Assembly: GCF_000217815.1 (NCBI RefSeq)
Contig: NC_015707.1
Coordinates: forward strand, 496,001 to 560,000
Direction of reading: 5' to 3'
Origin: Pseudothermotoga thermarum DSM 5069
Lineage (GTDB): Bacteria; Thermotogota; Thermotogae; Thermotogales; DSM-5069
DNA length: 64,000 bases
Shown here: positions 57,058-61,829 of the stretch, one piece after another
How the letters are laid out: each line of letters starts with the position of its first letter
Numbering within the stretch: position 1 is the stretch's first letter
The notes under the pieces: generated by a model
Seen by the model: the letters and a program-made list of their open reading frames with translations, nothing else
Database searches by the model: none
What the model was told of the DNA's origin: nothing
Program-made: the position numbers and the translations under genes

Positions 57058-57836
57058 GTGTCAAGGTAATGGTTGTTCATCGAGCAGACAAAGCTAAGGA
57101 AGCAAAATTGCTTGTAGATCAGTTAAACGGTCACGTTGAGGTAGTTCAAAAGTATGATTTGGAAAGTTTAAAACCAGGTTCTTACAACTGTGATTTTGTG
57201 ATAGTTGTTGGTGGAGATGGAACAGTCTTAAAAACGGCGAAGATCGTTGACAAACCAGTGCTTGGCTTTAAAGCGGGAAGAATAGGATTTTTGGCAAGTT
57301 ATACTTTGGATCAAGTTGAAGTTTTTTTAAGGGATTTGCACGAAGGGAAGCTTTTGGAGGAAAAAAGATGGATGCTGAAGGTAATTGGAAAAAATGGATC
57401 TTACAATGCCATCAACGATTTAGTTGTAATGGTTTCGTCGAAAAAGATGGCTGAGTTCAGATTGTCTTTCGATGGTTGTTCAGATTTGATATTCTTCTCA
57501 GATGGTATTTTGGCCTGTACTCCGACAGGTTCAACTGCTTACAACTTATCGCTTGGGGGAGCGATAGTCAGTCCAAATTGTGATGTTATTCAAATCATGC
57601 CAATAGCTCCGTACTTTTTGCAGAATCGAAGTATAATCGTTCCTACAAGTCAAAAAATTAAACTTTGGTCTCATGCTGTTTGCGATGTGATGATCGATGG
57701 TGTCATCGTTGAAAAAGGCAGTGAGGTTTTCTTCACAAAATCTGAAAAAGTTTTTTCGTTGCTCAGACCTGATTACTACGATTTCTTTGCCGTTTTGAAG
57801 AACAAAGTTGGTTACGGAAGGGGGATCACGGATTGA
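57054..57836 (+). CDS. nadK: NAD kinase
   Basis: Phosphorylates NAD to NADP. 260 residues from TTG 57054 with GGTGATG upstream. VVGGDGTVLKTAKI holds the catalytic Asp of the GGDGT motif; FKAGRIGFLASY, YNAINDLVV (NE/D site), SDGILACTPTGSTAYNLSLGGAIVSP and the C-terminal ILPIxPH-like stretch IQIMPIAPYFL are present. Overlaps the second phoU gene by 4 bp. Confidence 0.95.
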   Translation: MSVKVMVVHRADKAKEAKLLVDQLNGHVEVVQKYDLESLKPGSYNCDFVIVVGGDGTVLKTAKIVDKPVLGFKAGRIGFLASYTLDQVEVFLRDLHEGKLLEEKRWMLKVIGKNGSYNAINDLVVMVSSKKMAEFRLSFDGCSDLIFFSDGILACTPTGSTAYNLSLGGAIVSPNCDVIQIMPIAPYFLQNRSIIVPTSQKIKLWSHAVCDVMIDGVIVEKGSEVFFTKSEKVFSLLRPDYYDFFAVLKNKVGYGRGITD

Positions 57837-58540
57837 GGTGGTTGGCTGATGAAAGGGTTGAAACGATAAAGAAAGCACTCATGAAGATGGGTTGGTTCAC
57901 CGAAAAAATGTTTCTGAAAACTTTGGAAGCTTTGCAAACAAAGGACATCAAATTGGCAAAGCAGGTGATCGAAGATGACAGCGTACTCGATGAAATGGAG
58001 ATCGAAATGAGAAAAGAAATCATTTTGACGTTGGGAATACATCAATTTTCTGGACAAAATTTGAGATTTTTGGTTGGGGCAATACAGATTGCTAGTATTT
58101 TCGAAAGAATAGGCGACAACGCAAGAAGAATGGCACAATTAACGATGAATCTTTTGAAAGATCAGCCTATCAAATCCTTTCCCGGTGTTGTTAAAATGGG
58201 TGATCTGGCAGCTTTGATGTTGAAAGATAGTCTTAGGATTTTGGCTGATTTAGTTGTTGAAGGAGCTTTTGAAGTTTGCGAGAAAGACGCGGAGATCGAC
58301 GAGCTTTATTCTGAGATTTACAACGAACTCGTTGAAGATTCGAAGAACTTCAAGGATAACTTGGAAAGAAATCTGATATTCCTTGAGCTTTGTCAACATG
58401 TTGAAGAAATTGCCGATCTTACAGCCAACATAGTTGAAACGGTTCTTTACGTGGTCACAGGACAAGCTTACAAGTGTTTCAAAGACCAAATGAAGCTTTT
58501 TGAAAGAAGCGAAGGTGTCCTGTTTGAAACTTCTGATTAA
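57833..58540 (+). CDS. Second PhoU-like protein
   Basis: 235 residues from TTG 57833 (AAGGGGG upstream). Two PhoU repeats: LRFLVGAIQIASIFERIGDNARRMAQLTMNLL and LIFLELCQHVEEIADLTANIVETVLYVVTG, each with the acidic ExxxD-type metal line. The gene neighbourhood nadK-phoU2-large envelope protein recalls the T. maritima TM1733-TM1735 region (from memory). Being outside the pst operon, it may have a role other than phosphate control. Confidence 0.88.
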   Translation: MRWLADERVETIKKALMKMGWFTEKMFLKTLEALQTKDIKLAKQVIEDDSVLDEMEIEMRKEIILTLGIHQFSGQNLRFLVGAIQIASIFERIGDNARRMAQLTMNLLKDQPIKSFPGVVKMGDLAALMLKDSLRILADLVVEGAFEVCEKDAEIDELYSEIYNELVEDSKNFKDNLERNLIFLELCQHVEEIADLTANIVETVLYVVTGQAYKCFKDQMKLFERSEGVLFETSD

Positions 58541-61500
58541 GTACCTTTCAAAACTTTCGCTTGGACCTATTCTTATAGGTTTAGCTGGTTTTGTGATTTT
58601 TGTAAGCGTTGAGATACTCTATCAACTATCGGATTTGATAGTTAGAAATCGTGTAAGCTTTTTCGTTTTGATGAGAATTCTGTACTATTATTTTCCTTAC
58701 TTTGTTTCCATGGGAATCCCGGTTGGAATTTTGCTCGCCATCTTTTGGGTTTTATCTCAACTTTCTTCGACCCATGAGATCATCGCTTTGCAAGTTCATG
58801 GGATAAGCTTAAAGGTCTTGATAGTGCCTTTTTTAATCATCGCAGCGATTTTAAGCTTTGCAACCTATTTGCTTGTGGACAGTATTGTTCCATCTTACAA
58901 CTACAAAGCAGATCAGGTGATCTCAAGGTATGTTTACAGAAAGCCTGAGCTGTTCATAAGCGAAAACGTTATAACAAAGGTTGACGAGAATCAATACCTT
59001 TACGTGAAAAGGTATGACAGACAGAACGGGATTCTTGAAAACATCGTTTTGTTCAGAAATGAACCAGCGGAAGAAGAGATCGTAACGGCAAAGAAGGTTT
59101 ACAAGGAAAAGGACAAATGGTACATGCAAGATGGCAGAATTTACAGAGTCGACAAAGAGGGAATGTTGAGATTCGATGTCAAGTTTGAAAAGTTAGAACT
59201 CGATATAAAGCAAGATGTTGAAACCATCATGCGTGTAGGTAAAACTCCAAAAAGCATGAAAGGAAGCGAGCTTAAGGATAGAATCAAAACTCTTGAAAAA
59301 CTTGGTATAGATCCTGCTCCTTGGGTGGTGGAACTCCACAGCCGTTATTCAACCTCCCTTGGTCCTTTGATAATAGTTCTTGTCGGTATACCAACTTCTT
59401 TGATGTTCAACTTGAAAAGTAAGTCTTGGGGAGCCATTTTGACTTTTGTCATAATCGTTCTTTACCAAGGTTCTGGTGCCTGGATCAGCGCGATGGGTAA
59501 AGAAAGGTTGCTTAACCCAATACTTTCAGCTTGGCTTCCAAACATTTTCTTTTCAGCTGTGGGTTTAGTTTTATTCTTAATTCTCGATACACGGATAAGT
59601 TACTTTGTGAGGGAAAAACTCTCAAGATTTTTTGCCATAGCAATCTTTTGCTTTTTACTTTCGTTCTCTTCGGTTGTTTTCCCCAAGACAAACCTTGCTG
59701 TTACTTCAAATCACGTTGAATATTTTGGCAAAACCTTGGTTTTTTCAGGTGAAGTGAAAGTCATTTACCAGGACGTAGAAATTACTTGTCAAGAACTGAT
59801 TTTGAACATAAATGAATCCGGAAATGTTGATAAATTGTTTGCAAAAGGAGATGTGAAGTACATCAAGAAGGATACCTTGATTCGCTCTCAAAGTCTTCTT
59901 TACGTATTTTCTGAAGAATCTGTGAAAATGCTTTCAATTTATGGAAAAACAGTGTACGAAGAGGAAGGAAAAAAACACGTGGTTTACTTTGGTTCACCGG
60001 CTTTGGATGGAGAAAAAGGTCAGTACTTGTTGAAAAGAGCTTTTTTGACCACGTGCGAGCTTGAAAAACCACACTATAGATTGCAAGCTGTTGATGTGGA
60101 AATAAAAGAAAACGAATATCTTGTTGCCTACAACGCAATACTTTACATATTGAGCATTCCAACAATCTATATTCCCGTGTACTTTCAATCGCTCAAAGAA
60201 GGACCAGATCCATTCGCGGTAATGTTTGGTTTTGAAAAAGACAAGGGGTTGAATTTGGAAACATCTTACAACATGCAGATGAAAGATGGAAGAATTAGGG
60301 CAACAGTTGGATGGCGCAAGTTGTTCGTTGAACCTTTGAATTATTCAAAACTTGAATTGGAAAAGGAATTTTCAAATGCAAAGTGGACTTTGAGTTACCA
60401 GATTGAGGAAAGACAGCTGCTGCCGCCAAGTTATTCTTTGAACAACGTTGTATCCTTTGAAGATCGTTTAAACAGTTCTATTCGGGTTTATCTGACGAAC
60501 GATAGAAATTATTTTGAATACAAAATAAACCCAATTCCAGGCTTTGTAGGTTACATCAGTCGTCTCAAATACCTGGACAGAACAACTTGGTATTTGCCAA
60601 GTCTTTCTGTTAGAAACCTTCAATACAAAGCGGATAATCTAGTTTTTAAAGTTGGATCTTTGTCACATCAAAGTACTGTCAGCTACATCTCAGGTTCGCT
60701 GTTTGACCATTTGAGTGAAATTTCATCCACAGGCAGGTTCAACGCATCGTTTACTCTCACTTTGCCAAAGCCTTTGAGAAACCTTGAAACAGCTTTTGTT
60801 GGTTATTATTCAATTAAACAAACGGAATTTCAAAAGGGTAGTTACCTACAGGTTGATTCAAGGTTACCGTTCAGAACAGCAAAGGTTGCATCGAACTGGT
60901 TGGAATTTTCCGTGGACAACACCGTTTTTGCGGGGTTTAGAATGGCTTACGATGATTTCGATTACAGGATATCACAACTTTTCAATCCTAAGTTAACATT
61001 CAAACCACTTGGATTTTTCTCGTTTTCAACTGGTTTTGAAAGGCTTGGTGTCTTTGCTTCCGACGATTATCGTTACTTTTCCAACTCCCAGGAAAGGGCC
61101 AAAATAACTTTCAACGCAAAGTTAAATGTTCCAACAACTTTGTTCGACGCTTCAACTAGTTACGATTTGATTTCTCAGCTTTGGGATGATCTTGTGTTGA
61201 AAAGTAGCAGCGTTTTCAGAGTTGGCCCTGTCAATTTAACAACCTTCACGACGACGATTTACAAAATCGAGGCTGGATACTTTGAAAGGACCGATTACAA
61301 CATCGAATTGACTTATTTGACTTTGCGTCATACAACGGAATTTTCTTACTATTACAACAAAAACGTTCCTGTCGATATGATCAAAAACACTTTGAGAATT
61401 ACAGGTAGAGAATTTTATCAACTTAAGCAGCCCGACATCAGAGTGTCTTACACAGTTGGTTTACAACCGCTGGTGCTTCTTTTAATCGATGGTAGAGGAA

Positions 61501-61829
61501 GGTTCAAAGTAAATGAAACCTCACATGAATTTTCATTTCTTTACGTTGCCGGATCTGGCGCTCTCAACCTTTCCTACAAACTTTCGGAAATGGATCCTTC
61601 GATAAGCCTTGCTTTGGATGCAAAGTTAAGGCCATTTTCCATCAAAAGCTTGGGATTAAAGGTGGAAAAAGACCTACATTGTTGGGGGTTGATCTTCGAA
61701 GGAAAGTTTGCGATTGATCCAAGTTTTTCCGTTCAAAAGCTTTCTTTGACCTTCTTCATAAAAGAATTTCCAAAGAAAAGTTTTACAGTTGACCTATACA
61801 CAGGTGAGTTTGATTTGAACGTTTTCTGA
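58524..61829 (+). CDS. LptF/LptG-type permease fused to LptA/LptD-like periplasmic and outer-membrane modules (1101 aa)
   Basis: TTG 58524 gives MKLLIKYLSKLSLGPILIGL, the usual LptF/G start, 6 nt after GGTG. Residues 1-360: LptF/G (YjgP/YjgQ) permease with membrane segments near 12-35, 50-75, 90-112, a periplasmic beta-jellyroll at about 120-260, and three more segments near 285-360. A further hydrophobic stretch at about 368-386 (FFAIAIFCFLLSFSSVVF) could be a signal/anchor. Residues about 392-510: OstA/LptA-like repeats (VTSNHVEYFGKTLVFSGEVKVIYQDVEITC ... NVDKLFAKGDVKYIKKDTLIRSQ). Residues about 520-1101: LptD-like beta-barrel region (TTCELEKPHYRLQAVDVEI, IPTIYIPVYFQSLKEGPDP and many aromatic-ended strands, ending LNVF). 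Overlaps phoU2 by 17 bp. Confidence 0.88.
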   Translation: MKLLIKYLSKLSLGPILIGLAGFVIFVSVEILYQLSDLIVRNRVSFFVLMRILYYYFPYFVSMGIPVGILLAIFWVLSQLSSTHEIIALQVHGISLKVLIVPFLIIAAILSFATYLLVDSIVPSYNYKADQVISRYVYRKPELFISENVITKVDENQYLYVKRYDRQNGILENIVLFRNEPAEEEIVTAKKVYKEKDKWYMQDGRIYRVDKEGMLRFDVKFEKLELDIKQDVETIMRVGKTPKSMKGSELKDRIKTLEKLGIDPAPWVVELHSRYSTSLGPLIIVLVGIPTSLMFNLKSKSWGAILTFVIIVLYQGSGAWISAMGKERLLNPILSAWLPNIFFSAVGLVLFLILDTRISYFVREKLSRFFAIAIFCFLLSFSSVVFPKTNLAVTSNHVEYFGKTLVFSGEVKVIYQDVEITCQELILNINESGNVDKLFAKGDVKYIKKDTLIRSQSLLYVFSEESVKMLSIYGKTVYEEEGKKHVVYFGSPALDGEKGQYLLKRAFLTTCELEKPHYRLQAVDVEIKENEYLVAYNAILYILSIPTIYIPVYFQSLKEGPDPFAVMFGFEKDKGLNLETSYNMQMKDGRIRATVGWRKLFVEPLNYSKLELEKEFSNAKWTLSYQIEERQLLPPSYSLNNVVSFEDRLNSSIRVYLTNDRNYFEYKINPIPGFVGYISRLKYLDRTTWYLPSLSVRNLQYKADNLVFKVGSLSHQSTVSYISGSLFDHLSEISSTGRFNASFTLTLPKPLRNLETAFVGYYSIKQTEFQKGSYLQVDSRLPFRTAKVASNWLEFSVDNTVFAGFRMAYDDFDYRISQLFNPKLTFKPLGFFSFSTGFERLGVFASDDYRYFSNSQERAKITFNAKLNVPTTLFDASTSYDLISQLWDDLVLKSSSVFRVGPVNLTTFTTTIYKIEAGYFERTDYNIELTYLTLRHTTEFSYYYNKNVPVDMIKNTLRITGREFYQLKQPDIRVSYTVGLQPLVLLLIDGRGRFKVNETSHEFSFLYVAGSGALNLSYKLSEMDPSISLALDAKLRPFSIKSLGLKVEKDLHCWGLIFEGKFAIDPSFSVQKLSLTFFIKEFPKKSFTVDLYTGEFDLNVF

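Follow-up and report, generated by a model that had tools for sequence, protein, structure and literature searches.

A predicted two-part precursor joining an LptF/G-type permease to an LptD-type outer-membrane barrel in Pseudothermotoga thermarum and other Thermotogota

The Thermotogota are toga-bearing, mostly heat-loving bacteria. In Pseudothermotoga thermarum DSM 5069, a single open reading frame (ORF) encodes both an inner-membrane permease and an outer-membrane β-barrel of the pathway that carries lipopolysaccharide (LPS) to the cell surface. How can one polypeptide chain serve two membranes, and what would such a system export? The frame (positions 58524..61829, + strand) lies in a window of 64,000 nucleotides, the whole stretch analyzed here (contig NC_015707.1, positions 496,001 to 560,000). 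It starts with TTG and codes for 1101 amino acids in a single frame without an internal stop. Surveys describe the Thermotogae as being without LPS (PMC5007114), and another reports that the Thermotogota, bamA apart, lack almost every outer-membrane gene (PMC8871954). The answer that we consider probable is that the product of this gene is a two-part precursor, which signal peptidase I would cut to give an LptF/G permease and an LptD barrel.

The N-terminal part of the protein (residues 1 - 356, 58524..59591, + strand) is an LptF/G permease domain with six transmembrane helices and a small periplasmic β-domain, as judged from Pfam, hydropathy, an AlphaFold model and fold matches in the Protein Data Bank (PDB). 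Residues 6 - 352 match the Pfam family PF03739 (LptF_LptG) over the whole length of the model, with an E-value of 3.5e-78 and 263.6 bits against a cut-off of 27.9, in accord with the original prediction, which placed LptF/G in the N-terminal 360 or so residues. In the hydropathy profile, one hydrophobic stretch, at residues 366 - 389, comes in addition to the transmembrane segments of LptF/G, so that the stretch originally noted at 368 - 386 was recovered independently. The domain, its fold and its partner LptB are all shared with the LptF and LptG subunits of the LptB2FG(C) complexes (PF03739; PDB 6mjp, 6mit and 9doh). However, these are two separate proteins in Proteobacteria, whereas the P. 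thermarum genome contains one copy of LptF/G and no distinct pair of F and G subunits. The permease is presumed to be a homodimer because the genome holds only this copy, which in addition carries a long C-terminal extension. A single LptF/G is also found in diderm Firmicutes (PMC5007114); thus the possession of two different subunits is not a defining trait of LptF/LptG everywhere.

The extension, from about residue 388 to residue 1101, is, by sequence profile and by structural model, a complete LptD homolog consisting of a β-taco domain and an outer-membrane barrel. When the tail alone was compared with Pfam, the LptD_N match was below threshold (E-value of 0.16). A profile, A2, was built from 33 relatives of residues 388 - 1101 and searched against all PDB sequences. 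It matched LptD of Neisseria gonorrhoeae (PDB 7omm, 3.3e-7) over profile positions 5 - 215, covering the taco domain and the beginning of the barrel, as well as another LptD (8h1r, 1.1e-4) and several LptA proteins, including 8onu (7.2e-7). Twenty-two of the 33 members of A2 matched LptD_N at an E-value of 1 or lower.

An AlphaFold model of the entire fusion protein, calculated from 34 sequences, has a mean predicted local distance difference test score (pLDDT) of 83.2, compared to just 32 when no alignment was supplied. The predicted template modeling score is 0.44, and the placing of the parts relative to each other is therefore not reliable. The model contains the LptF/G helices and small β-domain, a helix at residues 357 - 383, β-strands at residues 392 - 556 and a barrel at residues 564 - 1099 that is almost entirely β-structure. 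When the model was compared with the PDB by Foldseek, full-length LptD chains ranked at the top (8h1r, 5e-22; 5iv9, 2.7e-21), followed by LptF/G chains (6mjp_G, 3.6e-14). The secondary structure contains more than 30 strand segments, some of them split, a count that does not resolve the exact number of barrel strands (26 in LptD). With this barrel in the model, and with LptD as the closest structure to it, the possibility that the C-terminal part contains no β-barrel can be set aside.

The β-taco (OstA/LptD_N) domain comprises residues 392 - 556 (59697..60191, + strand), and the predicted barrel residues 564 - 1101 (60213..61826, + strand), ending in phenylalanine. A C-terminal phenylalanine is the usual signature of substrates of the β-barrel assembly machinery. 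The last residue is Phe in 27 of 39 sequences, Met in 11 and Leu in one. Two cysteine motifs are conserved. The first, TTC (residues 509 - 511, 60048..60056, + strand), is situated at the domain boundary, and its Cys511 is invariant in 38 of 38 sequences; the second, LHCW (residues 1051 - 1054, 61674..61685, + strand), contains Cys1053, which is retained in 33 of 38. In Escherichia coli LptD, one of the two disulfides is formed by Cys173 and Cys725 (PMC8423444). By motif and position, Cys511 and Cys1053 appear to be the counterparts of this pair, from which we infer an equivalent disulfide.

The taco and barrel domains, the TTC...CW cysteine pair and the C-terminal phenylalanine are thus features that the Thermotogota tail has in common with known LptD proteins (PDB 8h1r, 7omm and 5iv9). 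Unlike these, it is fused behind LptF/G, belongs to a phylum without LPS and escapes PF04453, the Pfam model of the LptD barrel, which gave no match over its cut-off in 103 Thermotogota genomes. Among the control genomes, PF04453 matched only those of E. coli and Caulobacter, and none of those of Thermus, Deinobacterium, Synechococcus and Bacteroides. It is a narrow model for this reason. The original prediction described a chain of LptF/G, OstA/LptA-like repeats and an LptD-like barrel. The single chain and the LptD-type barrel are borne out by the profile and the model, but the taco part is the N-terminal domain of LptD itself and not LptA. A reading of the tail as LptA plus LptD was rejected on these grounds, and also because a separate LptA-like gene is present in the genome.

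The two halves are joined by what looks like a conserved internal signal peptide with small residues at positions -3 and -1 of its site. It occupies residues 357 - 387 (59592..59684, + strand) and consists of a positively charged stretch, RISYFVREKLSR, a hydrophobic core, FFAIAIFCFLLSF, and a c-region, as delineated by alignment columns in 38 sequences. Sequence identity around the join is otherwise low. Nevertheless, a net positive stretch precedes the hydrophobic core in all 38 sequences, and at the presumed cut column position -1 is Ala, Gly or Ser in 33 of them, position -2 is Phe, Tyr, His or Trp in 31, and position -3 is Val, Gly, Ala, Leu, Ser, Thr or Ile in 35. No column beyond residue 360 scores as high for this three-residue pattern as the presumed cut column. 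Similar ends (IFA, VFG, AFS, VFS) are frequent among the N-terminal signal peptides that other proteins of these genomes carry, and VFG|K is the end of the signal peptide of the LptA-like protein. The only segment of the AlphaFold model with pLDDT below 50 is 380 - 388. The P. thermarum genome contains one signal peptidase I. In the P. thermarum protein the candidate cut sites are after Ser382 (SFS|S) and after Pro387 (VFP|K, the aligned column), and SFS|S is the likelier of the two.

The fusion is a property of the phylum. LptF/G was matched in 100 of the 103 Thermotogota genomes, and in 87 of them the ORF that contains the match is unbroken and has 1000 amino acids or more, complete single-contig genomes included; the check for conservation across the phylum that the original prediction had proposed thus came out in its favor. 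In most of the other genomes the LptF/G ORF is interrupted by contig ends or frameshifts. The fusion gene is broken in the relatives G093, G041, G044 and G078; in G093, which belongs to another genus of Thermotogota, a frameshift lies inside the LptF/G part (L069:3401-6585) and is either an error or a recent mutation. Full copies of LptF/G do not exceed one per genome, except in genome G005. In the latter, LptF and LptG are separate tandem genes (L044), both ending just after the sixth transmembrane helix, where the signal peptide begins in the fused proteins, and a free LptD of 849 amino acids is encoded on a different contig (L136). This LptD has an N-terminal signal peptide that ends in AFT|Q. 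In genome G054 (L140), a stop directly follows LptF/G; only a few bases further on, an ATG opens the frame of an LptD that has a signal peptide. G005 clusters with fused members of its own family (support 99/98, long branches) in a tree built from LptF/G domains, and G054 falls inside its own family. Because both are nested with fused relatives, the split seems in each case to have arisen secondarily, and the fusion seems to be ancestral in the Thermotogota.

Outside the phylum, the A2 profile matched stand-alone ORFs, mostly of 640 - 900 amino acids, in about 200 of 287 genomes. LptF/G ORFs there span ~360 - 890 amino acids among the matches listed, none of them being as long as the LptF/G-LptD fusion. 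Three genomes of other phyla (G320, G178 and G206) have ORFs of 773 - 893 amino acids with two LptF/G matches each, which are LptF-LptG fusions. Larger LptD-type ORFs outside the phylum (1092 - 1292 amino acids; G114, G286 and G141) were read through, and other extensions but no LptF/G were noticed in them. In two genomes that are not of Thermotogota, LptF/G lies directly upstream of LptD (L143 and L144), a gene order that could provide a simple route to the fusion. A scan of contigs using the single fusion protein as a query yielded no loci. The same scan using the alignment yielded 42, all in Thermotogota or metagenome-assembled genomes, but its patterns are phylum-specific and so do not constitute a test of other phyla. 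In one family (f9; L048-L051 and L057), the ORFs are 1426 - 1466 amino acids long and the profile of the other families ceases to match the barrel part after its position ~230; judging from this comparison, the outer part is diverged or extended in f9.

The partners that the original prediction suggested looking for, an LptB-like ATPase and BamA, are both present in the same genome. LptB (G000:C1:80065-80757) scores 296 bits against a cut-off of 240, the next ABC ATPase scoring 184.5 among the matches listed, and LptB is over the cut-off in 98 of the 103 Thermotogota genomes. The gene of an OmpH/Skp-type periplasmic chaperone directly precedes and overlaps that of LptB (L079:9572-10761), which suggests that barrel assembly is coupled to lipid export. 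BamA has POTRA domains. A separate gene of 208 amino acids encodes an LptA/LptC-like protein with a weak match to LptC. It sits after a gene for a coiled-coil protein with an SLH domain that resembles the toga anchor OmpA1 (L083:7333-9127; G000:C1 about 1736300-1738100). In the unfused genome G005, a protein of 602 - 603 amino acids with three tandem LptD_N/taco domains is encoded beside a gene for an RseP-like protease (L082:9294-11105), and is possibly a long, one-piece LptA bridge.

LpxC was found in none of the 103 Thermotogota genomes, and LpxB had no match over the cut-off in the same set, in agreement with the earlier statement that the phylum is without LPS. Because LpxC and LpxB are absent, the cargo of the Lpt machine would not be LPS, and a lipid of the glycolipid type is somewhat more likely than not. 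Borrelia burgdorferi likewise lacks LPS, and glycolipids have been proposed as the cargo of its Lpt system; the same authors cite Thermotoga maritima as a further bacterium that has Lpt orthologs and glycolipids of its own but no LPS (PMC10353723). The Borrelia system resembles that of the Thermotogota in having the Lpt parts without LPS, but its components are six separate proteins and none of them is fused.

In the mechanism that we propose, two copies of the LptF/G part would probably pair and associate with two LptB ATPases, and the complex would extract from the inner membrane an amphiphilic lipid that is most likely a glycolipid and not LPS. As a signal peptide inside the chain, the seventh hydrophobic stretch would send the remainder through the Sec channel. 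Cleavage by signal peptidase I would most likely take place near residues 382 - 387. BamA would insert the barrel of the freed LptD into the outer membrane, Cys511 and Cys1053 would link the taco domain to the barrel, and the taco domain would take the lipid from the separate LptA-like protein. The proposal builds on the homologies of both halves, the occurrence of the fusion throughout the phylum, the signal-peptide-like join, the partner genes and the absence of LPS genes, all read from sequences or from the model. FbcH, the cytochrome b/c1 precursor of Bradyrhizobium japonicum, is one chain that is cut at an internal signal peptide. There, as proposed here, the chain contains an exported protein in addition to an inner-membrane protein with several spans, but the proteins are unrelated to those of the fusion and neither part leaves the inner membrane.

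The original prediction left it open whether the hydrophobic stretch releases the outer part or whether the chain physically spans the periplasm. If the chain were not cut, the seventh hydrophobic stretch would be a permanent anchor as in LptC, and the polypeptide would run from the inner membrane through the taco domain to the barrel, tying the two membranes together. LptC is indeed built in this way, with a taco domain after a membrane helix; its only trace in the genome is the weak match within the LptA-like gene, and the fusion has been retained throughout the phylum. Several properties of the site itself weigh against a cut. The complete pattern [AVGLSTI][FYHW][AGS] is found at the cut column in just 66% of the sequences, and a few conserved LptF/G columns outscore this column, presumably for structural reasons. 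The P. thermarum protein has proline, which is disfavored by signal peptidase I, at the aligned -1 position, and its alternative site at residue 382 is outside the conserved column. The split in G054, moreover, is known from one metagenome assembly and could be produced by a single sequencing error of the insertion or deletion type. On the other hand, a plain anchor offers no reason for a small -1 residue and for the pattern at -2 and -3, and the halves are separate genes in G005, whose LptD has an ordinary signal peptide. In T. maritima, OmpA1 rods hold the toga at a distance of ~45 - 50 nm from the cytoplasmic membrane (PMC3387000; PMC9388160), whereas the single taco domain of ~165 residues between helix and barrel would reach only a few nanometers, which makes a permanent one-chain bridge unlikely outside special contact sites. 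Cleavage is thus the better supported of the two alternatives, given the cut-site columns and the unfused LptD proteins of G005 and G054, and we regard it as probable. An uncut, anchored chain is improbable. Much the same can be said of a one-molecule trans-envelope bridge in which the chain is left uncut or is cut only after assembly, and which would need local contacts between the toga and the inner membrane.

Two further explanations are much less likely. The barrel half could place or anchor toga proteins without any export of lipid, as the original prediction also entertained. Such a role would suit the absence of LPS genes and the position of the LptA-like gene behind an OmpA1-like SLH/coiled-coil gene in the same genome. 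However, those parts of a lipid-exporting Lpt system that were looked for are present (LptB in 98 of the 103 genomes, and the LptA-like gene), the LptD cysteines and the taco domain are retained, and a proteomics paper on the toga makes no mention of OstA, a permease or BamA. Nothing was found that speaks positively for toga building or favors it over the export of an amphiphile, and we consider it very improbable. That two genes were merged by a frameshift or a missed stop, through an error of annotation or assembly, is hardly conceivable. Breaks do occur in the four relatives named above and nothing more specific points to an artifact, whereas the same unbroken ORF in 87 genomes, including complete single-contig ones, led to its rejection. 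The preferred reading is therefore still that of a precursor cut into a permease and a barrel.

Directly upstream of the fusion gene is a gene for a PhoU-domain protein (57833..58540, + strand; PF01895, 1e-36), whose 3' end overlaps the start of the fusion by 17 bases. A PhoU gene immediately upstream, often overlapping, was found at 30 of 37 Thermotogota loci (L032-L071) from many families.

The component families of this system are known. What appears to be new is an LptF/G-LptD polyprotein that is found throughout the phylum and appears to contain an internal signal peptide. No paper on such a fusion was found in the literature searched; Putker et al., 2015, which reportedly lists Lpt orthologs of T. 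maritima, may contain an earlier mention. The Thermotogota possess an Lpt pathway that is essentially complete, LptD included, and that fusion and divergence have masked. The presence of this pathway bears on the composition of the toga membrane and on how diderm envelopes arose, and it makes the nature of the lipid carried by an LPS-free Lpt machine a testable matter. Moreover, the fusion is a probable example from bacteria of two proteins, one for the inner and one for the outer membrane, that are synthesized as a single chain before signal peptidase separates them.

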